Assembly: GCA_022496205.1 (NCBI GenBank)
Contig: WTXD01000052.1
Span: 1-64,000 of the forward strand
Length of the DNA: 64,000 bases
Direction: 5' to 3'
From: Gloeopeniophorella convolvens
Lineage: Eukaryota; Basidiomycota; Agaricomycetes; Russulales
Shown piece after piece: positions 1 to 60,800 of this stretch. Position numbers and translations under genes: made by a program. The notes under the pieces are model-generated. The model was not told the origin of the DNA. It did not search any database and saw nothing but the letters and a program-made list of their open reading frames with translations. Every line of letters begins with the position of its first letter. Position 1 is the first letter of the stretch.

Positions 1-358
1 CGAGTTCGTGGAGATCGTGGGGGAAACTGATGATACGGAGTTGGCGACGATTGTATTCTTCTCTGCACCAGCGTCGGAAGTTGTGAAAACCAAGGTAGTT
101 TCGGGTAGGCAAGGTTTGACCGATGTAGATGATTTCTGGGTGGTGCGCAACGTTATCACGTTGGATGTCGATGAGTCGGGTTCTGCTGAGGTTTCTTGGA
201 TCTTCAGGGGTTGGCGTACGTTGTACTGGTGGTAACGCTACTTGCGGTAGTGGTGTCGGAGGACGGTGTCTGGGAGACCGTCGACGATTAGGTCTGGATG
301 CCAGGATTGCGACAGAAAGACTCTGATAGTCTAAAATACAGGGTACAGGAGGATCTGA
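1..358 (-). other. Open, coding-like segment E (unrecognised), runs off left edge
   Basis: On the minus strand this stretch is open from the TAG at 359-361 to the left edge, in the same frame as the segment before that stop. It reads as a proline/arginine-rich part (RRRSPRHRPPTPLPQ) followed by a more globular, aromatic-rich part (IIYIGQTLPTRNYLGFHNF, then RRWCREEYNRRQL). There is no methionine codon in it. I do not recognise the family. It could be the continuation of segment D by read-through of the TAG, a separate exon, or decayed sequence. Codons prefer C or T in third position, which suggests past or present coding. Confidence 0.35.
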
Positions 359-1083
359 CTAGATCTCTAAATACTGGGTGTCGGTAAGGTCACTGGTGTC
401 TTGTAGGTCGAGGTCGCTGATAGTGTGGATGCTGGGGACGTCGTTGTCTGTTGCTTCTTGTTCTTCGTCGAGGCTGAAGTTGCTGACGATGCTTGGGGCG
501 TTGTTCCAACTGTTTTCTTCAACGTCTGATTCAGGGGTTGCGGGAGGAATAAGAGGAGGTCGTCGAGGTACAGGATACAGGAAGTCGTTGTTTGATTGGA
601 CAAGGTCGAGGTCGAGAGGATTACTTATGATCCAGTGTGCGTCTTGCAGGTGCAAGGTATAGTTGCAGAAAGGGCCGGAGCGGATAGAGTAGAGAGGTAC
701 TAGAGGGTTTTCTTGAAGTAGGACAAGTTGAGCGAAGTGGAGACGAGTCTGGTATGGAGTAGTGATGAAACGTTCAAGATAGTAGATTCGATGGCCGGTA
801 AGGATTTTCTCGATGAGATGTTCTTTGTGGACTTGGACGATGTTCCACCAGAAGAGCTCGAGTTCGAGCCAGAGGTTGGTGGTTTGGATGGGTTCCCAGC
901 GTACACCGCTAGGTCGTTGAAGGAACCAGAAGAGGTGCTGTTCTTCTACAGCACTTTGGACAATGTTCCTTTCAGCGTTGAACCAGTGACTGAGGTGTAG
1001 ATCGTTGTCAAAGAGTTGTCCGAATGGGAGAGATCGCCGAAGTCTTGTTAAAACCGGGGTAAGCCAAGAGTCAGAGCGGACTA
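359..1083 (-). other. Open, coding-like segment D (unrecognised)
   Basis: A minus-strand open frame of about 240 codons ending at the TAG at 359-361. It has an aromatic- and leucine-rich middle (for example LWLELELFWWNIVQVH) and an acidic, serine-rich end (ATPESDVEENSWNN). It contains no methionine. It picks up where segment C stops (TAG at 1081-1083) but in the other frame, so one base has been gained or lost, or a frame change takes place, around 1081-1140. The C/T-ending codon use supports real coding history. No domain recognised. Confidence 0.35.
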
Positions 1084-1392
1084 GAGTGTCGGTAGAAAAG
1101 TCGTGGACCGAGCACGAGGGTCGTAGAACTGGAGTCGGATAATGCGATGAAGGACTTGATAATATTTGTCGAAGAAGCGTCGGTAGGCTTGGTCAAAGGT
1201 TAGGCGATTGTCGTCGTTGTAAGGATCAGATGGAGTCCTTCAAGCAATACTTGGGGTGGTGCTTCCACTGAGTCGAGTCTGAGTCAATAGTATCTCCCAC
1301 AGAGGTGCTACGCACTCTAGAAAACGATTGGGCAGATACTACTACTGGTACAAGGTAGTCGACTTGGTTTACTGGGTTTACAGGAACTCTTC
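1081..1392 (-). other. Open, coding-like segments B and C (unrecognised), frame changes at both ends
   Basis: Two short minus-strand open stretches link the large ORF A to segment D. Segment B (about 1392-1226, ends TGA) reads VNPVNQVDYLVPVVVSAQSF and further. Segment C (about 1226-1081, ends TAG) reads LTFDQAYRRFFDKYYQVLHR. The frames alternate A, B, C, D as 1-2-1-2 (by coordinate modulo 3). Neither piece has a methionine. Either the gene is broken by three small indels, or translation changes frame, or I have missed small introns. Confidence 0.3.
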
Positions 1393-2898
1393 TACCGGAA
1401 TATGGACGATGGCGAGGAGGTTGGAGTCGATAACGAGGAAGGGATCGTCGCCTATCTGCTTGATGTTGTTGGGAACGCGAGCGTAGGCGGTGAAGAGTTT
1501 GAGGTGGGGGTAAAGGCTGCAGGCGTCGTTCACGACGGAGTACCGGTTGTCGATGCGGATGAGGCGACCGTGGTTGAAGTGGAGGTTACCTTCAGTGGTG
1601 AGGACGCGGCCGTCGAGGAAGTCAATGTGACGAAGGGGAATTCTTGCTCCTTCGTAGAGTCGTTGGGTGCCGAATGCGAGGTCTTTGAAGGTGTGGATGA
1701 GGTGGTAGGTGAAGTCGTAGCGGATGGCGCCAAGGGGGAGTTCTCGGCAAGGGGGAGTATAAGCGGTGACGGCGCAGATGTACTGTGGTGCGTATGGTGG
1801 ACCTTGTCCGTTTACACGCGTGGAAGGGATGGTGATGTAGTGCTTGGGAAGGATGATCGACCTGAAGGGACGGACTTCAGGGAGGAACTCGTCGAAGTGG
1901 GTGAGGTAATAGAGGGCGCTGCTGATACGAGGGACGTGGAAGGGCTGGTGGTGGTTGCCGACTGCTGCTGGGTAACCGTGTAGGACTTGGGCGATGCGCT
2001 CGTGGTAGTAGTGGTTGGTGTGAGCGCAGTCAGGGGATGGTGCACGGCGAGGGAGAACGAAGTGGTTCTCGGCGTAGTCAGTGAGGTCCTCACTGAACTC
2101 AGAGATGGAGGGGGAGCGACGAGGCGGAGCCTGGTATGGAGGAGGTGCGTGATCTGGGATTTGCTCAACTGCGACGTCGACTAGGATTTCAAGGGCAGGG
2201 GCAGGTGCTGGATTGGGAGCGAAGATTAAGGGAGATATCGTCGCTGCTCGCGAGGGTATGGGAGTTGGTACAAGATGAGGAGCAGGAGCAGGAGCAGGAC
2301 TGAGCGCAGGAGTATGTGTCGACGATGCAGGATGAGGAGAAGGGGCAAGGATAGAGAGATGCGAAGGGGAGTAAAGAGGCGAAAAACGCGACAAGCGAGG
2401 CTGGGGAGTGGATACGACAGGGGAGGCTGGAGTAGGCTCGACCAAGGGGCTGGGAGCTTGTTCACCAGTACGAGAGGGGCCAGGAGTGGGAGACTGAGGG
2501 ATGACTGAGGTGCGTACAATTTCTGCGAAACGTTCTTGCACTTGTTGAGCTCTGAGGCGGACTAGGAAATCGAAGGCCGAGTGGTGAGGAGAGGGAGAGC
2601 GAGGTGGTACAGTGAGAACGTCGAGGATTTGTCCTGGTTCGACGTCGATCGGAGATGGGGAGCGCGGATGGTATGATGGAGAACGAGGCGTGGGTGGAGG
2701 GCGAGGAGTGGAGACGAGAGGAGGGTACTGGAGTTCAGGAGACAGTCCACGAGTGGGAGTGCCGTAGTCAAGAAGGGTTGGCGGTCCACGAGGGGGAGCG
2801 TCAAGATCAGAGTAGGACGAGGGACGAATCAGCGCTTGAGGATGAGCACGGTCCGAGAGGAGCGCGGTCTGAGGTGCGGTAATTCCAAAGTAAGACAC
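1378..2898 (-). CDS. Large proline-rich, methionine-free ORF A, unrecognised
   Basis: A 507-codon open frame ending at TAA 1378-1380. It has no ATG at all; the frame opens at 2913 after a TGA and the first possible near-cognate start is a GTG at 2896-2898. Roughly residues 1-270 are proline/serine-rich and low in complexity (many SPSP, PPRSP, PAPAPA runs). Residues about 280-500 look globular (LPLGAIRYDFTYHLIHTF, then LYEGARIPLRHIDF). I recognise no domain and assign no function. It lies about 230 bp downstream of a TATA-like box on the same strand. It may be a gag-like or other mobile-element protein, or a decayed gene; the sequence alone does not decide. The plus-strand ORF opposite it (1402-1983) is its shadow. 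Confidence 0.4.
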   Translation of the reverse strand: MSYFGITAPQTALLSDRAHPQALIRPSSYSDLDAPPRGPPTLLDYGTPTRGLSPELQYPPLVSTPRPPPTPRSPSYHPRSPSPIDVEPGQILDVLTVPPRSPSPHHSAFDFLVRLRAQQVQERFAEIVRTSVIPQSPTPGPSRTGEQAPSPLVEPTPASPVVSTPQPRLSRFSPLYSPSHLSILAPSPHPASSTHTPALSPAPAPAPHLVPTPIPSRAATISPLIFAPNPAPAPALEILVDVAVEQIPDHAPPPYQAPPRRSPSISEFSEDLTDYAENHFVLPRRAPSPDCAHTNHYYHERIAQVLHGYPAAVGNHHQPFHVPRISSALYYLTHFDEFLPEVRPFRSIILPKHYITIPSTRVNGQGPPYAPQYICAVTAYTPPCRELPLGAIRYDFTYHLIHTFKDLAFGTQRLYEGARIPLRHIDFLDGRVLTTEGNLHFNHGRLIRIDNRYSVVNDACSLYPHLKLFTAYARVPNNIKQIGDDPFLVIDSNLLAIVHIPVEEFL

Positions 2899-3128
2899 TA
2901 GAGTCGCAGCTGATCAGAGGGTGTAAGAGACTGTCCAAATGTCAGGACTCACTCGCGGGGTGCGCGCAGAGAGGATAGCAGAGGGTTTGGAGAGCGTCAC
3001 AAGGGGGAACAGAAGATGAGCTGCGAGTATTGCAGATACGAGGGGGAACACACTAACAGTGCTATTGCAGTGCTAGGTACAGATGAGAGTGCCACAGATG
3101 GACAGTCTGAGGACCACTGGGCGATACA

Positions 3129-3159
3129 TGGGGGTCTTATATACTACTGGAGACCCCCA
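3129..3159 (-). promoter_or_regulatory. TATA-like box inside a perfect 9-bp inverted repeat
   Basis: TGGGGGTCT (3129-3137) and AGACCCCCA (3151-3159) are exact reverse complements with a 13-nt spacer holding TATATA. Read on the minus strand this gives TAGTATATAAG about 240 bp upstream of ORF A. The first minus-strand ATG of the window (3127-3129) overlaps the repeat edge. It is therefore a candidate core promoter for the leftward transcript. Function is inferred, not shown. Confidence 0.35.
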
Positions 3160-3367
3160 GACGAATCTGGTCTAATTACTGATGGGGATTCCAGAGGGGA
3201 TTCCCCATAACCTCTCCTCTCTGATACGCTTCTTAGATTCCATCGCAGAGTGGGGCTTGAGGCCCCATGGAGTTCTTGATGATCAGAGTCCCAAAGAGGA
3301 CGCATGAAGTGTTTCACCTTGATCAAGGTTCTGGTTACTTTGGGACGAGTAATATGGCCATTCTGAG

Positions 3368-3387
3368 AGATCCCTAGTCCGGGATCT
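3368..3387. repeat. Perfect 7-bp inverted repeat
   Basis: AGATCCC at 3368-3374 and GGGATCT at 3381-3387 form a small perfect palindrome with a 6-nt loop, in the noncoding stretch upstream of the prolyl oligopeptidase gene. No function can be assigned. Confidence 0.5.
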
Positions 3388-3488
3388 TGGGGGTATTCCA
3401 GGGTTAATTGGCCATTAGGGAGTAGGGCGAGGAATGGGGGTGAAGGGTCACGTGATGCATTTCGACTTGTAGTCGCAATGTGAGTGGT

Positions 3489-3513
3489 ACGCGTCGCATT
3501 GTGAGCGACGCGT
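3489..3513. repeat. Perfect 9-bp inverted repeat
   Basis: ACGCGTCGC (3489-3497) and GCGACGCGT (3505-3513) are exact reverse complements around a 7-nt loop. It is one of three perfect palindromes within 400 bp, which suggests a regulatory or mobile-element end rather than ordinary spacer. Confidence 0.55.
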
Positions 3514-3767
3514 AGGGTATTTACTGGTAGGGCTGGATTTGCTCTAGTGTTCTGAGCAGTTCGACCTCCTTGAGGCCCTAGTGTTCGTGACAGTAACTAG
3601 GTAAGCGCAAGTCCGGAAGTACCGGAAGTAAAGTACTTGCCTCAGTCAGTGAAGTCAACAGACTGAGGCTACAAGGGCGAAAACAGTGTCCTTTATATAC
3701 ACAAAAGGAGTGTGGTTTGCATGTAATAAACAACAGTAACATGTGATAACTAGAGACCCATGTGAAA

Positions 3768-3831
3768 GCGGAACTAAAGTGGGTTGACCGGAACTGCAGG
3801 TGGGTCAACCGGAACTGCATGTGGGTCATGG
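3768..3831. repeat. Short tandem repeat, 21-bp unit
   Basis: Two full 21-bp units (3779-3799 and 3800-3820) differ at three positions. They share the core ACCGGAACTGCA and are flanked by partial units on both sides. Such short arrays are common in fungal LTRs and intergenic DNA. Confidence 0.6.
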
Positions 3832-4411
3832 AAGAGCCCAGAAGAATCTAGAACAGGAACGAAAGTAGGTACAGCCTTAGGGGCTAGAACAAAGTGATGT
3901 CATATACATTGTAGATCAGATAGCTCACAGATCACCGAGTCCCTTATCTAATCTAATCAGAGATGTCCTTCCTGTCCTGAGTCCTGTCCATCTCAACACC
4001 TGACCCCACTCTGCGCTGCTGCACTTGCTCATTCTGGACCTCCATCTTGTACCAACATATGCCACCCCATCTCCTGCTGCTCCCATAACCACCAGCTCAA
4101 CCCAACATATGGACTTTATCCGGATTTCATGAAAATCACGTGACCTATATTAGGGTTAGGGGCTGACATAACCCTAGGGGGTTCCTGGTGATGGCAATCT
4201 TACCGATCAGGCCCTTAGGCCTTAGTGCGAGTCAGATGATCGAGCCGTGAATTGAACTCATTGTCACGGGATACAACCGTCCGCTCAAGACTTGGAGATG
4301 CTCTTGCCTATCGCTCGATTATCTCGCGGCTCGCTATTGCGGTCTCACACCAGACTCTCCATCTTACGCCCTTCACACTACCCAAGTATCATCTGCTCTC
4401 TCAGACGGAGC

Positions 4412-7400
4412 ATGGCCTCGACCGTGTGGACACCGAATCGTTACCCCTCCGCGCGACGTTCCGATCACATCGATACCTACCACAGTGAAGCGAAGGGCGA
4501 GGTAAAGATTCATGACCCATATAATTGGCTAGAAAAGGACGCCGAGGAGAAAGATGCATGGGTTGCTGCTCAAGAGGCCTTCACACGTGGATTCCTGGAT
4601 GCTAATTTGGACCGGACCAGGCTGGAGGAGGAAATCAGAACGAGTACCGACTATGAGAAGGTGAGCCATCTGTTCGTGACGAGGCTGAGAGTCCTGATAC
4701 ATGAGCAACCCTTATCAGTTTGGCCCTCCAGTTCTGAGGGATGATGGTCGATGGTACTGGTCATACAACAGCGGCTTGCAGGCACAATCCGGTTCGTGCT
4801 TCTGCTCGCATGCACATCGACTATCTTGGCTCAGAGCATCCCACCGTCTCAAGTCTATTACCGATCGAGGGATGGCACGCTCCCGAACTCTGTCTATGGA
4901 TCCGGCGGTGAAGTGTTTTTCGACGTGCGTTGCGTTGTGCCTCTCCAGATGCAAATAATTCATCTTCCTACATCAGCCCAATGTTCTCTCAAAGGATGGA
5001 TCCGTTTCTCTCAGCACTGCGGCTTATTCGCGTGACGGTAAATGGTTCGCATATGCACTATCTCGTTCCGTACGTGCTCCGTGCTATTGTTCGCTGAGTG
5101 CGTTGCGGAAATAATACATTCATTCTCCAGGGTAGCGACTTCACAAACGTCTATGTTCGCTCCACTGAACACCCACTCACCGACGCAAACAATGACCTGC
5201 GCCTAGCAGATGAGCTCCGCTTCGTCAAGTTCTCCAGCATCGCTTGGACCCACGATAATCAAGGATTCTTCTATCAGGCGCGTTCATCCTCTCCGGTGGC
5301 TTCATTGAAATGACTCATTTCTCCCCAGAGATTCCCCGATCGTACATCGCATGGTCCCGCCGACTCGGATAACGCAGGAACGGAGACTGACGGTGATCGA
5401 GATGCAGAGCTGTTCTACCATAGGGTTGGGACAAAGCAGTGTACGTCTCCATTCGCCACTCGGGGGTTGCAACGTCTCTCTGAGCTGCTGCAATTCAGCG
5501 CGGGACATCTCGGTGATCAAGAACCCCGAGCAGCCCCAGTGGCTATGGGGTGCTGGCATCTCCGAGGTCGATGGACGATGGCTAGAGCTGTCCGTCTCTC
5601 GTGACACTTCACGGGTGCGTCCTCAGTTGCCGCTACCCCGCTCTTATTGAACCCAGGTTAGAAAAATCTGCTATGGCTCGCAGACCTCGAGAAGGATACG
5701 ATAGGGCCGAATTTGAGTTGGATCAAGCTGGTTGATGGCTTCGATGCCGAATATAGCATGTGCGTGTCACGATTCTGCGCGCTCTGCGTAGCTGACTGTC
5801 CCTCGTTAGCATCGGAAACGATGGCTACACCTTCTACTTGCACACGAATGTCGATGCACCCCAATACAAAGTCATCACTGTCGATGTCGAAGCATTCATC
5901 AAGGCTTCGAAGGCCGGCTCTGCGCACATCAAGGACTTCTCCAAGGACCTTATTCCCGAAGACAAAGACGCCCACCTTGAGGATGCGTCCATCCTCGGTC
6001 AAGACCGGCTAGTGCTTGTCTACAAACGCAACGTCAAGGACGAACTCTATATCCACGATCTCAAGACTGGGCAACAACTCAAACGTCTGGCCTCGGACCA
6101 TGTCGGCTCCCTGGCTGCGTACGGACGGCGCAAGCAGCCGTTTTTCTTCGTCTGGTTGACGGGCTTCGATACACCCGGCGTCGCCGCCCGATACGACTTC
6201 ACCAAGCCGAGCGGTGGGAAGGCCGACGGAAAGTGGAGTGTTTGGCGCGAGACGAAGGTTAGTGGCCTAGCAGGAGAGGGTGGGTTCCTTTCAGAGCAAG
6301 TCTGGTATAAGAGCAAGGACGGCACCAAGGTCCCGATGTTCGTGGTCCGCCACAAGGATACGCCCCTCGATGGCACAGCACCTGCGATTCAATATGGTGC
6401 ATCACGATCGTACCCGTTTCGATGTGACACTGACTGGGCGTGCAGGCTATGGAGGCTTCTCCATCTCCATCGGGCCATTCTTCAGCCCGTCTATCCTCAC
6501 AGCCATGCGTACATACGGCTTTGTGTTGGCGGTCCCCAATATCCGTGGCGGTGGTGAGTTCGGCGAAGAATGGCATCTCGCTGGGACCCGTGAGCGCAAG
6601 GTGAGCCATATACAATGCTGGAGAAATCATCACTGAAGGATCCGTCTATGAAGGTGAATTGCTTCGATGATTTCATCGCCGCCTCGTGAGTTGCCTGCTG
6701 TACAACCCAATAGCCTGAGCTGCAACTTCCACTTTAAGGGAGTGGCTGGTCGAGAACAATTACGCAGCAAAGGGCAAGATTGCCATCAACGGTGGATCGA
6801 ACGGCGGTACGTCGTATAGACTCAGGCTCAATTGAACTTTCGAACCGTTCATCGTCATATACAGGTTTACTTGTCGCTGCATCGGTAAACCGTGGACCTG
6901 AGGGTCTTTTTGGGGCCGCCATTGCCGAGGTCGGCGTTCATGACCTCCTGAAGGTGACCTCCCAATGATGTTGAGAGATAATGATTACTGATTACCCTGG
7001 AACTCCAGTTCGCCGACTTCACTATTGGACGTGCTTGGACATCGGACTACGGCAACCCGCACGATCCCCACGACTTTGACTTTATTTATCCTATTTCCCC
7101 AGTGCACAACGTACCGGCCAACAAGACCCTTCCGCCCATGCTGCTCCTCACTGCCGACCGTGCATAGCAACCCCCTCATTAAATTAAACAAAATGCTGAC
7201 CCCGCATGCGCAGACGATGATCGCGTTGTACCGCTTCACTCCTTCAAGCTTGCGGCGACACTGCAGCATGTGGCAGCTAGCAACCCGCACCCCTTGCTCC
7301 TTCGACTCGAACTCAAGGCTGGTCATGGCGCAGGCAAGTCAACCGAACTTAAGTAAGTGTTATCAACTGCCCCGAGATGGTCGCTCTGAAAGTGTTGCAG

Positions 7401-7592: not shown

Positions 7593-8381
<789 letters not shown>

Positions 8382-57870: not shown

Positions 57871-60800
57871 ATGGCGCCAAAGAATAAAGGGAAAAAGGGA
57901 AAGAATGTCGACGACGATGCGTACTGGTACGTCTAGTCATCGTCTTTCCTCTCAACACGCCAACAAAGATGCTTGGCCAGGGAGAATCTAGGCACGTCTG
58001 TCGCGGGGAATAATCTGACCGCGACCAACGGCGATTCCGATGGCGAGGATTATCAAAAGGGAGGCAAGAACGGGGCACGCTCTTCCTTTGCAGCCTTGGG
58101 TGTCAATGATGGCCCCGAACAAGTCGATGATGATGAAGATTTCGGCGGACTCATGGTGCATTCTTTCTTAGGCCTCGCACATTCGGCTTGGATCTGATAT
58201 ATCTCGGGTAACTAGTCTACGCTGAAAGCGACGCAAAAAACCAAGAAGGACAAGAAGAGCAAGAAGAAAGAGGGTGCGGATGCCCCGGGGACATCTGTGT
58301 CTTTTGTCGAGGGCCCTCCCCCGGGCGAAGGTTCAGACACGGAAGCTGCTGGAGCAAAGGGCGATATTTCCTCCCCCAAGGCGGGTGTAGAGATGACGCC
58401 TGATGATCTCGCCGACGAGGAATGGGGGCCTTTGAAAGAGAAGGGAAAGAAGGGAAAGAAAGGCAAAGGGAATAAAAGCAAAGCTGACGACGACGACGCA
58501 ACTACGGGTGCGTATCGCATTTCATCGCTACTTTTTGTCTCTGAGGTTACCCCAGCGCCGGAGCCGCCTCAGCTGGAGCCCACTGCTGCAGACCCCACAC
58601 CTCCCACGCAAGAAAGCAACGATGCCGAGGATCCCGAGGAGGGAGAAGGGCTCAAGCTTTTGTCGAAGAAAGAGAAGGAAAAACTGAAGAAAGAAAAGGA
58701 GAAGGCAAGCATTATTGCCGTGCGCTCATTCTGCATTCTATGCTCATAGGTCTTCCGTTGTTAGGCGAAGAAAAGGGCTCAAGCGGCAGCTAAGAAGTCT
58801 CAAGCCACTGAGACAGATGGGACTACGGTGCCGGAAGTCCCACAAACCGCACCTGACCCTCACCCCTCTGCCGCTGTGGACAGAGACGAGGACGAAGCTG
58901 ACGACGGAGAAGCTGCAGGTGGCGAAGGTGGGGACGCGAAGAAGAAGAAAAAGAAGAAGAAAGCAAAGAAGGAGGAGGAGCCCACCCCCGCTCCAGCGAA
59001 GAAGAAAGGTGCCACAGGTATCAGCGCCCTGAAGGCGATGATGGAAGAGAAGAAGCGCATCGAGGAAGAGGCTCAGCGAATAGAAGAAGAGGAGCGCAAG
59101 CGCATAGAGGAGGAGGAACGCAAAGCTGAAGAAGAAGCACGTCGCAAGGAGGAAGAAAAGCAGCGCAAGAAAGAGAAGGAGAGAGTGCGTCATGCTTACT
59201 CACGCTTAATCCTCTCTCATTGTGCCCCCAGGCGAAGCGCGAGCTGGCAAAGAAAGAGGGCCGCCTTCTGACCAAGAAGCAGAAGGAGGACCAGCGCGCC
59301 GCCGAAATTCGTAAGCAGGCCCTACTCGCCTCAGGCGTGCAGATCGAGGGGCTCCAACAACCTGGAGCACCCTCGAAGCGACCTGTGTACAGGAATCGCA
59401 AGAAAGGCCCTACTAACCGTGATTCTCCTGCACCCGACTCTGCGCCCCAAACACCTCAGCCACCACCTCCGAAGGAACTCACTCCAGAGCCTATCCCAGA
59501 GCCGGAGCCCGCCCCTACCGGAACAGCTCCGGATGATGTCCCAGATGACTGGGAGGCTTCTGGCGACGAGGAAAAGACAGCACCTCCGACTGCAGACGTT
59601 AAGGGGTCGTGGGACGACTCCAGCGACGAAGAGCAAGAGAAGCAGCCGGCAACGCCTCCGGCTCCTGCACCGAGATCCACTCCCGCGCCTCCGGCCGTAA
59701 AAAAGACCGCTCCTTCCGAAGGTGCGTTTGTTACTATTGGCTAAGTACTCCCTCTCACCTGCGCTTAGCCAATGATGCCCCTGCGAAGCCTGAAGCAGGG
59801 AAGTCGACTCAAAAGCAAACCCCGAAGGTAGCTCTCGGCGCAATTCCCGCCGCCGCGTCCACCAACGGGAAGCCCACTGCGCCCGCAGCTGCAGCCAAGG
59901 CCACGCCTGCTCTCGAGTCGAGCTCCGAGGAATCAGACTCAGACGATTCCGAGGAGGATTCGTCGGAAGACAGCGACTCGGGTTCTGATTCTTCTGACGA
60001 TGCTCGCACCACCGCGCAGCGGATGGCCGCACAGCGCAAGGCAGAGGCCGCGGCACGGCGGCAGAAGGCTCACGAAGACGCTATTGCGGCGGGAAGCAAG
60101 GAGGACCTTCGCAGCCCTATTTGCTGTATTTTGGGGCATGTCGATACCGGTAAGACCAAACTGCTGGACAAGGTGTGTACTACCCACAAGGCCACGATTC
60201 ACCGTAGCGTTGATGCGACGGATGTTGTTCGGTAGATCCGGCAAACAAACGTACAAGAGGGTGAAGCTGGTGGTATCACTCAACAAATCGGTGCCACGTA
60301 CTTCCCCGTGGACGCGATCAAGACGAAGACCGCAGTATTGAACCGGGTAAGACCTATGGTTCTTCCACATAACAGTTTTGTTGACGAGTGACAGGATGAC
60401 AAGCAAGAATACAAGATCCCTGGCCTGCTCGTCATTGATACTCCGGGACATGAGTCTTTCACCAATTTGCGTTCCCGCGGCAGTTCGCTGTGCAACATTG
60501 CCATCCTCGTTGTAGATATTATGGTGCGTGTGCATCCGCAAGTCCGAACCCACTCTGAGCATTGCGTAGCACGGCCTGGAACCGCAAACACTCGAGTCTC
60601 TACGCCTGCTTCGCGACAAGAAGACCCCGTTCATCGTCGCCCTGAACAAGGTACTCCCCTCGCCGACTAAAGTCTTTGTGCCTTCTGATCGGGATCTAGA
60701 TCGATCGTATCTATGGATGGCAGGCAACACCAGATGGTGCCTTCCAAGAGTCCTTGGCCAAGCAGAACCGCACTGTACAGCGTGAGTTTGAAGATCGGCT

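Follow-up and report, generated by a model that had tools for sequence, protein, structure and literature searches.

An AUG-free leader of more than three kilobases ahead of gag in a chromodomain Ty3-type retrotransposon of a basidiomycete

A window of 64,000 nt from the basidiomycete Gloeopeniophorella convolvens (contig WTXD01000052.1, positions 1 to 64,000 of the forward strand) begins with more than 3 kb in which one strand holds no ATG. Not a single CAT occurs on the plus strand between positions 1 and 3126, hence the minus strand lacks ATG there; the first CAT follows at position 3127. What is encoded in this stretch, and what keeps it free of ATG? We find that it is the 5′ part of a multicopy long terminal repeat (LTR) retrotransposon of the Ty3 type, read leftward and cut by the start of the contig. 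We consider it likely that the AUG-free leader of this chromodomain element serves leaky scanning, in which ribosomes pass the weak non-AUG starts of three open reading frames (ORFs), here called A, B and C, to reach gag. The evidence consists of computation on the sequence of one genome (36.7 Mb in 404 contigs), in which the window is the start of contig C353.

The gap had been noticed in a preliminary description made from the letters alone, and its counts proved exact. ATG is common on the plus strand of the same stretch (55 instances in 1–3126, a normal number), and CAT occurs 1013 times in the window (~16 per kb). The longest ATG-free run of the minus strand measures 3128 nt at the left edge, followed by one of 919 nt (59220–60139), and the longest on the plus strand measures 507 nt. 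Chance had been judged a poor explanation, and a first-order Markov model that keeps the dinucleotides agrees: 20.0 ± 4.4 ATGs were expected against none seen, with a minimum of 8 in 1000 runs. Nor do many other triplets go missing through composition alone, the trivial cause named at the time. In a census of all 64 triplets over the leader of three full-length copies, ATG was the most depleted (0 versus 22–27 expected), followed by TAA, GGG and CCG with about 1.6- to 3.4-fold depletion. The gap stops at the window edge because base 1 of the window is base 1 of contig C353; it is continued in other copies of the element. As a separate observation, the 919-nt run of the minus strand falls into a region poor in both triplets, the 1-kb bin from 59000 holding just 4 CAT and 8 ATG.

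The element and the limits of its AUG-free zone

Counting itself, the 1–3126 stretch is matched at least 57 times in its own genome. The copies in contigs C398 and C382 lie between paired LTRs; in C47 the contig start cuts the 5′ LTR of the copy. From LTR to LTR the element measures about 10.2 kb. The two LTRs are 98.6% identical in C398 and 97.9% in C382; a 5-bp target-site duplication, CTTTG, was found at C398 and none was evident at C382. In the window, the 5′ LTR occupies 2940–3592 on the minus strand (653 bp, TGTCACG...TGACA) and contains U3, a TATA box and the start of R/U5; its limits follow from element copies, whose similarity reaches ~3592, and from LTR copies, which stop at 2940. 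Profile matches in the body comprise RVT_1 (6.5e-36), RT_RNaseH_2 (1.4e-37), Integrase_H2C2 (1.7e-22) and rve (1.9e-14), with the integrase after the reverse transcriptase (RT) as in Ty3/gypsy elements. The C terminus of the integrase carries a chromodomain (PF00385, 1.9e-14) and SH3_Tf2-1 (3.5e-14), which places the element among the chromoviruses. Gag and pol lie in different frames. The gag frame contains the zinc-knuckle-like sequence CMYCGGGGHWSDKC and weak capsid matches (Ty3_capsid, E 0.002; Retrotrans_gag, 0.0017), both of which miss their cut-offs. Caulimoviridae possess no integrase, and with its integrase the element falls outside that family.

Two side observations concern the ends of the element. 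In L030 and L025 (C382), the pol frame (+6982 to +9627) continues through U3 of the 3′ LTR and past the TATA box to a stop inside R. Beside the LTR of the window, positions 3592–3999 hold an additional repeat of ~408 bp, which also has matches in five fetched loci (L009, L010, L015, L022 and L026) and sits between two parts of an LTR in L009 and L015.

The right edge of the gap coincides with the promoter. A leftward-reading TATA-like box had been suspected there, and AGTATATAAG was found at 3136–3145 on the minus strand; usual TATA-to-start spacing would place the transcript start near 3113. As a second sign, independent of the box, the complement of the sequence directly following the LTR (TTTGGACAGTCT) occurs at +19 in leader coordinates, in which +1 is window position 3126. 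The putative primer-binding site TGGACAGTCT (2928–2937, minus strand, 2 nt after the LTR) is thus complementary to AGACTGTCCA (3099–3108, minus strand), which we predict to form the 5′ end of the RNA and to act as self-primer. This 10-nt complementarity to the predicted RNA 5′ end is present in 20 of 21 copies and was reached by 2 of 5000 shuffled primer-binding sites. Folding of the 5′ 229 nt gave nothing unusual (z −1.6), and the pairing of the primer-binding site did not stand out in that fold. Judged by the TATA box and the self-priming match, transcription probably starts at about window position 3108, so that the gap would cover just the transcribed part.

In the window the AUG-free zone of the transcript spans positions 1–3126 of the minus strand; in other copies it extends beyond the contig start to about +3339. 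Upstream of +1, C398 and C382 each have 9 ATGs in 470 nt, the last at −3, and the truncated C47 has 7. Downstream of −3 the first ATG is met at +3339 in C398 and C47 and at +3331 in C382. The next follows at +4146 (or +4138), and beyond it there are 2–12 per 500 nt. The first 4.2 kb of these three copies consequently hold only two AUGs, both in the gag frame. The AUG at +3339 stands in a weak context (ctctttATGagta), the one at +4146 in a better context with A at −3 (cccaagATGtctt). The latter is residue 270 of the 619-residue gag frame, and the capsid match begins at residue 279. A gag relative of 34% identity has the same layout, as counted by hand: residues 1 and 6 are Met, residues 7 to 214 include none, and the next Met is residue 215, just before the capsid. 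A deletion has shortened the leader of C53; there the start would lie ~1704 nt before gag and the last ATG before gag is at −1708, which fits a zone that begins at the transcript start. We also considered C53 as a diverged gag lineage, but it differs from C398 at only 2 of 804 sites and therefore provides no independent test. C366 had no match to the gag start used as query.

Leader frames and selection against ATG

Three long frames without Met occupy the leader, all on the minus strand. ORF A (1381–2913) has 511 codons from stop to stop and a TAA stop at 1378–1380; its N half is rich in proline and includes a PPPY motif, and its C half is variable. ORF B (362–1283) has 308 codons in intact copies; in the window copy its 5′ part is out of frame (open in 362–1192), and the upper edge is placed from L013. 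ORF C (2–358) follows in the same frame after a single in-frame TAG (359–361), which is present in all 21 of the 23 aligned copies that reach that far; the window holds the first 119 of its 189 codons before the contig start. Of the 88 matches to A, five are open from end to end (C353, C9, C105, C192 and C146) and one, in C99, is open to the contig end. Full-length matches number 16 of 74 for B, with 2 free of stops (C105 and C6), and 18 of 50 for C, with 10 free of stops.

The copies fall into an A-type and a B-type, of which 13 and 10, respectively, entered the codon-position counts. Variants shared by at least 2 copies were distributed over codon positions 1/2/3 as 43/24/118 in A, 13/7/51 in B and 11/5/19 in C for the A-type, and as 45/26/136, 21/11/59 and 23/11/38 for the B-type. 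Variants seen once were less skewed in A (66/43/104 and 80/57/87 for A-type and B-type) and flat in C (38/45/42 and 75/84/73). Between A-type and B-type, the nonsynonymous to synonymous ratio (dN/dS) of ORF A was 0.05–0.07/0.30–0.32 in the first 255 codons, about 0.2, and 0.41–0.42/1.2–1.4 after codon 262. A, B and C are under purifying selection as proteins, by the codon positions for all three and by dN/dS for A.

None of the three had a Pfam match, and structure predictions for A and B were uninformative (mean predicted local distance difference test scores of 28.7 and 34.6). The PPPY motif of A is kept in 6 of 6 aligned rows; in retroviral Gag such a motif is a late domain, an analogy that provides a lead only. 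For ORF A no homologue was found among the 7996 candidates listed. With gag, one protein in another public assembly was found among the 7994 candidates listed (34% identity over 58%), and with ORF B one protein of 303 residues among 397 (97% identity, on a 1377-nt contig of another public assembly). A viral contig collection queried with gag, B and A returned no relative, and a genome contig collection queried with C returned none.

Candidate starts were sought as near-cognate codons kept across copies, in L013 coordinates. For A these are ATC at +250, CTG at +301 and CTG at +388, each with a purine at −3; for B, GTG at +1853 with G at +4 and TTG at +1874 with a purine at −3. The candidate for C, CTG at ~+2819, has both the −3 purine and the +4 G, and 18 of 21 copies retain this codon. 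We rejected the idea that an intron joins A to B, as the possible donor GTAAAC at the end of A is missing from B-type copies. Just before B, at window ~1281–1322 of the minus strand, 40–60 nt (CTAGAGTGCGTAGCACC...GACTCAG) lying outside B are strongly kept in both subfamilies; they may aid initiation of B.

In the C half of ORF A, the two types represent old alleles. Blocks of 200 nt compared in 20 leaders showed preserved A-type and B-type copies to be 96–100% alike after ~+1800 and 53–71% alike over +1000 to +1780 (window ~1347–2127). Five A/B pairs that were tried had 259–280 differences in 685–777 aligned sites of this segment, about 36%. A divergent segment between near-identical flanks is a sign of an old exchanged segment, that is, of recombination between element lineages, and the coexistence of two old alleles suggests shifting selection on that domain. 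Neither allele has an ATG in +1000 to +1780, with 5.2–5.7 expected and zero reached in 2 to 14 of 2000 simulations.

For the comparison across copies, 23 of 24 leaders were aligned, the rearranged L028 being left out. Several copies have many single-base deletions and few substitutions (L020 19, L024 18, L025 20, L012 14, L014 11 and L009 9), and the more decayed L017 has 16 together with many substitutions; for most of them, the deletions that adjoin the same base make up no more than about half. Most are likely assembly errors in unpolished young repeats. They were left as they are and no base was restored.

The preliminary description had proposed to ask whether other copies keep the gap. 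Preserved copies do; in decayed ones the leader has acquired as many as 27 ATGs. Eight leaders are free of ATG: C47, C398, C382 and C260 up to +3330, and the window, C146, C9 and C99 to the respective contig end (3126, 2954, 2306 and 1698 nt). The one ATG shown for the L020/L032 pair under "all" comes from columns dropped before counting, L032 itself having none in 2954 nt. When the number of ATGs per kb was related to terminal branch length in the 23 copies, the line had an intercept of −0.06 and a slope of 52 (r 0.80). The control triplets CAT, GTA and GAT gave intercepts of 19.2, 9.7 and 6.1 and slopes of 16.5, 0.3 and 14.9. Among the six longest branches, three have 25–27 ATGs and three 12–16.

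Synonymous shuffling, with protein and codon usage fixed, led to the same conclusion from within the frames. The expected out-of-frame ATGs were 4.1–5.1 for A (three copies), 4.0 for B, 2.2 for C and 2.7 for the N-terminal extension of gag, about 13–14 together, and none was seen in any of them. The gag core, used as a control, had 7 against 6.2 expected, which is normal. The test is weak for C alone and for the extension alone, as 132–135 and 52 of 2000 shuffles, respectively, also gave zero. Since the decay extrapolates to zero ATG, both alleles are free of it and out-of-frame ATGs are absent, the lack of ATG is selected, and at the level of the RNA.

The direction of mutation is opposite. 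At 96 of the 170 ATG sites of ATG-bearing copies, the ATG-free copies have ACG; C-to-T change at CpG thus makes ATGs repeatedly. C47 still contains 64 ACG triplets. Another 11 of the 170 sites are ATG in ATG-free copies as well, presumably the gag AUG. The mutational pressure is thus toward ATG, a change that the active lineage does not accept.

A scanning model and its alternatives

How could such a leader work? In the mechanism that we propose, the RNA would start in the LTR at about window 3108 and carry A, B and C ahead of gag. On this view every frame of the leader is free of AUG because an AUG there would divert ribosomes on their way to gag. The 40S subunits, as they scan, would mostly bypass the weak non-AUG starts, giving small amounts of A, B and C; alternatively, B may be reached by termination and reinitiation and C by readthrough of the TAG. 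The remaining ribosomes would arrive at the weak AUG at ~+3339, yielding an N-extended Gag, and then at the better AUG at ~+4146 just before the capsid domain, yielding Gag in excess, as a particle-forming element needs it. Scanning ribosomes would exert just such a selection, against AUG in every frame between the transcript start and gag. Scanning itself, the use of non-AUG starts and the resulting protein ratio are what we infer, and on balance we hold it probable that ribosomes translate three frames, together ~1,000 codons, exclusively from non-AUG starts and scan 3.3–4.1 kb of AUG-free coding RNA to reach gag, which would be a means of setting the ratio of accessory proteins to Gag. Two suggestions of the preliminary description meet here: a mobile element with frames that can start only at non-AUG codons, which the copies, the LTRs and the Met-less frames support, and a long leader, maintained without AUG, through which ribosomes scan toward a frame beyond the left edge; this frame turns out to be gag.

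Several observations weigh against this proposal. The distance exceeds the viral precedent of ~900 nt, and the transcript start is itself a prediction. No near-cognate codon with both a −3 purine and a +4 G was found at the 5′ ends of A and B. The case is weaker for the stretch between the two gag AUGs: its freedom from ATG (+3339 to +4146) comes from five near-identical copies (C47, C398, C382, C339 and C34), C203, C341 and C54 have one ATG each there, several more-decayed copies have more, and C260 has 3 in spite of an ATG-free leader. The relation of ATG number to decay is loose, the longest branch (L023) having 14 ATGs, fewer than three shorter ones with 25–27. Shared variants create ATG above expectation (18 versus 10.7 and 26 versus 11.2), so that they show no avoidance; we trace this excess to the recurrent ACG-to-ATG change in decayed copies. 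Finally, three loci of other Ty3 families (8.7–9.0 kb each, ending in RT) have no such zone and the feature is therefore not general; their longest ATG gaps are 705, 1228 and 757 nt, in loci whose LTRs and transcript starts were not located. The ATG-free run of 1228 nt lies upstream of the RT of one such family, at L036 2395–3623 (reverse-strand numbering).

Gag might instead be made from another mRNA, spliced or from an internal promoter. Non-AUG starts or readthrough would then yield one accessory protein from the leader frames, and the avoidance of AUG would have some other reason. Such an arrangement would accommodate the three coding leader frames, and in all 21 copies reaching the TAG the frame of B continues beyond it as that of C, as at a readthrough site; errantiviruses, moreover, splice env. 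We consider it unlikely, as the avoidance spans out-of-frame ATGs, the gap between A and B and the sequence up to the gag AUGs, which a leader removed from the gag mRNA would not need, and as B-type copies lack the GTAAAC donor. If the leader were scanned and not translated, the frames would be relics of a captured gene, and AUGs would be purged as harmful upstream ORFs. The missing AUG and missing strong near-cognate start of A and B would suit this view, as would the search for homologues of A, which gave none among the 7996 candidates listed, but the protein-level selection seen in codon positions (A, B and C) and dN/dS (A) makes it quite improbable.

The two remaining explanations dispense with function. 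A strand-specific mutation process, also raised in the preliminary description, would account for a depletion confined to one strand. It is contradicted by decayed copies, which gain ATGs mostly at the ACG of intact ones, and by the bounds of the zone, promoter and gag, inside one element, and is very hard to credit. Base composition appears at first sight to favour chance, the minus strand having 514 G versus 1176 C over 1–3126, a G-poor and C-rich strand on which ATG should be rare. The dinucleotide-preserving simulations already take this into account, and two diverged alleles both have zero ATG, which leaves chance a negligible share. Leaky scanning past A, B and C to gag hence is the reading that we prefer, and as a whole the interpretation of the preliminary description is partly supported.

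Were it true, scanning in a fungus would be dependable across coding RNA longer than 3 kb, whole proteins would be maintained without AUG, which AUG-based gene finders would miss, and the element would offer a natural test of scanning distance as well as a new way to carry accessory genes before gag in a retroelement.

Neighbouring genes and known systems

Next to the element, a prolyl oligopeptidase gene of several exons lies on the plus strand at 4292–6557; its best solved relatives are 5n4c and kin, which we take to be mushroom enzymes and which point to a fungal, probably basidiomycete host. On the minus strand at 7718–8381, frames with an HAE...PCIMC pattern resemble a tRNA adenosine deaminase.

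In the matches listed by a search of the full-text literature, as far as titles and abstract openings tell, no LTR retrotransposon with an AUG-free leader was described. Basidiomycete chromoviruses (MarY1, Laccy and Tcn clades) probably share the host group, and in the parts of the source available to us no AUG-free leader is described for them; there, fungal families range from 4.4 to over 13 kb and a figure legend names one further ORF, its function unknown (PMC2864245). The element resembles Tf1 and the sushi group in its integrase C-terminal chromodomain with a Tf2-1-like SH3 and, in a putative trait, by a primer-binding site 2 nt after the LTR that would pair with the predicted RNA 5′ end. 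Tf1 self-primes with the first 11 nt of its RNA and, according to the portion of the report consulted, has a single frame (PMC7175516), unlike the succession of A, B, C and then gag and pol in different frames. POLGARF, a frame with a CUG start overlapping human POLG, is likewise a long non-AUG frame on an mRNA with an AUG product, but it overlaps the main frame of a cellular gene, and the sections available mention no AUG-free leader of kilobases (PMC7059407).

The closest parallel is found in rice tungro bacilliform virus (RTBV) and the badnaviruses, and the earlier statement that no system like this had been described was too strong. By the excerpts of that work at hand, these are reverse-transcribing as well, their upstream frames lack internal AUGs, the first frame starts at a non-AUG codon and scanning leads to a large downstream frame (PMC5902531). 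In RTBV, about 10% of ribosomes start at the AUU of ORF I, and over ~900 nt free of AUG the others continue because no internal AUG stops them (PMC5902531). The upstream frames of the element are equally free of internal AUG and under coding selection, their start codons being candidates. A short AUG-initiated upstream ORF with a shunt leader, as in RTBV, was not seen in the element. It differs, furthermore, in being a fungal LTR retrotransposon with an integrase and in having three frames none of which has an AUG, where RTBV ORF II, in the same excerpts, has one. Above all, its AUG-free zone of ~3.3 kb, or 4.1 kb with one weak AUG, is several times longer than the leaky-scanning leader given there for RTBV, about 900 nt.

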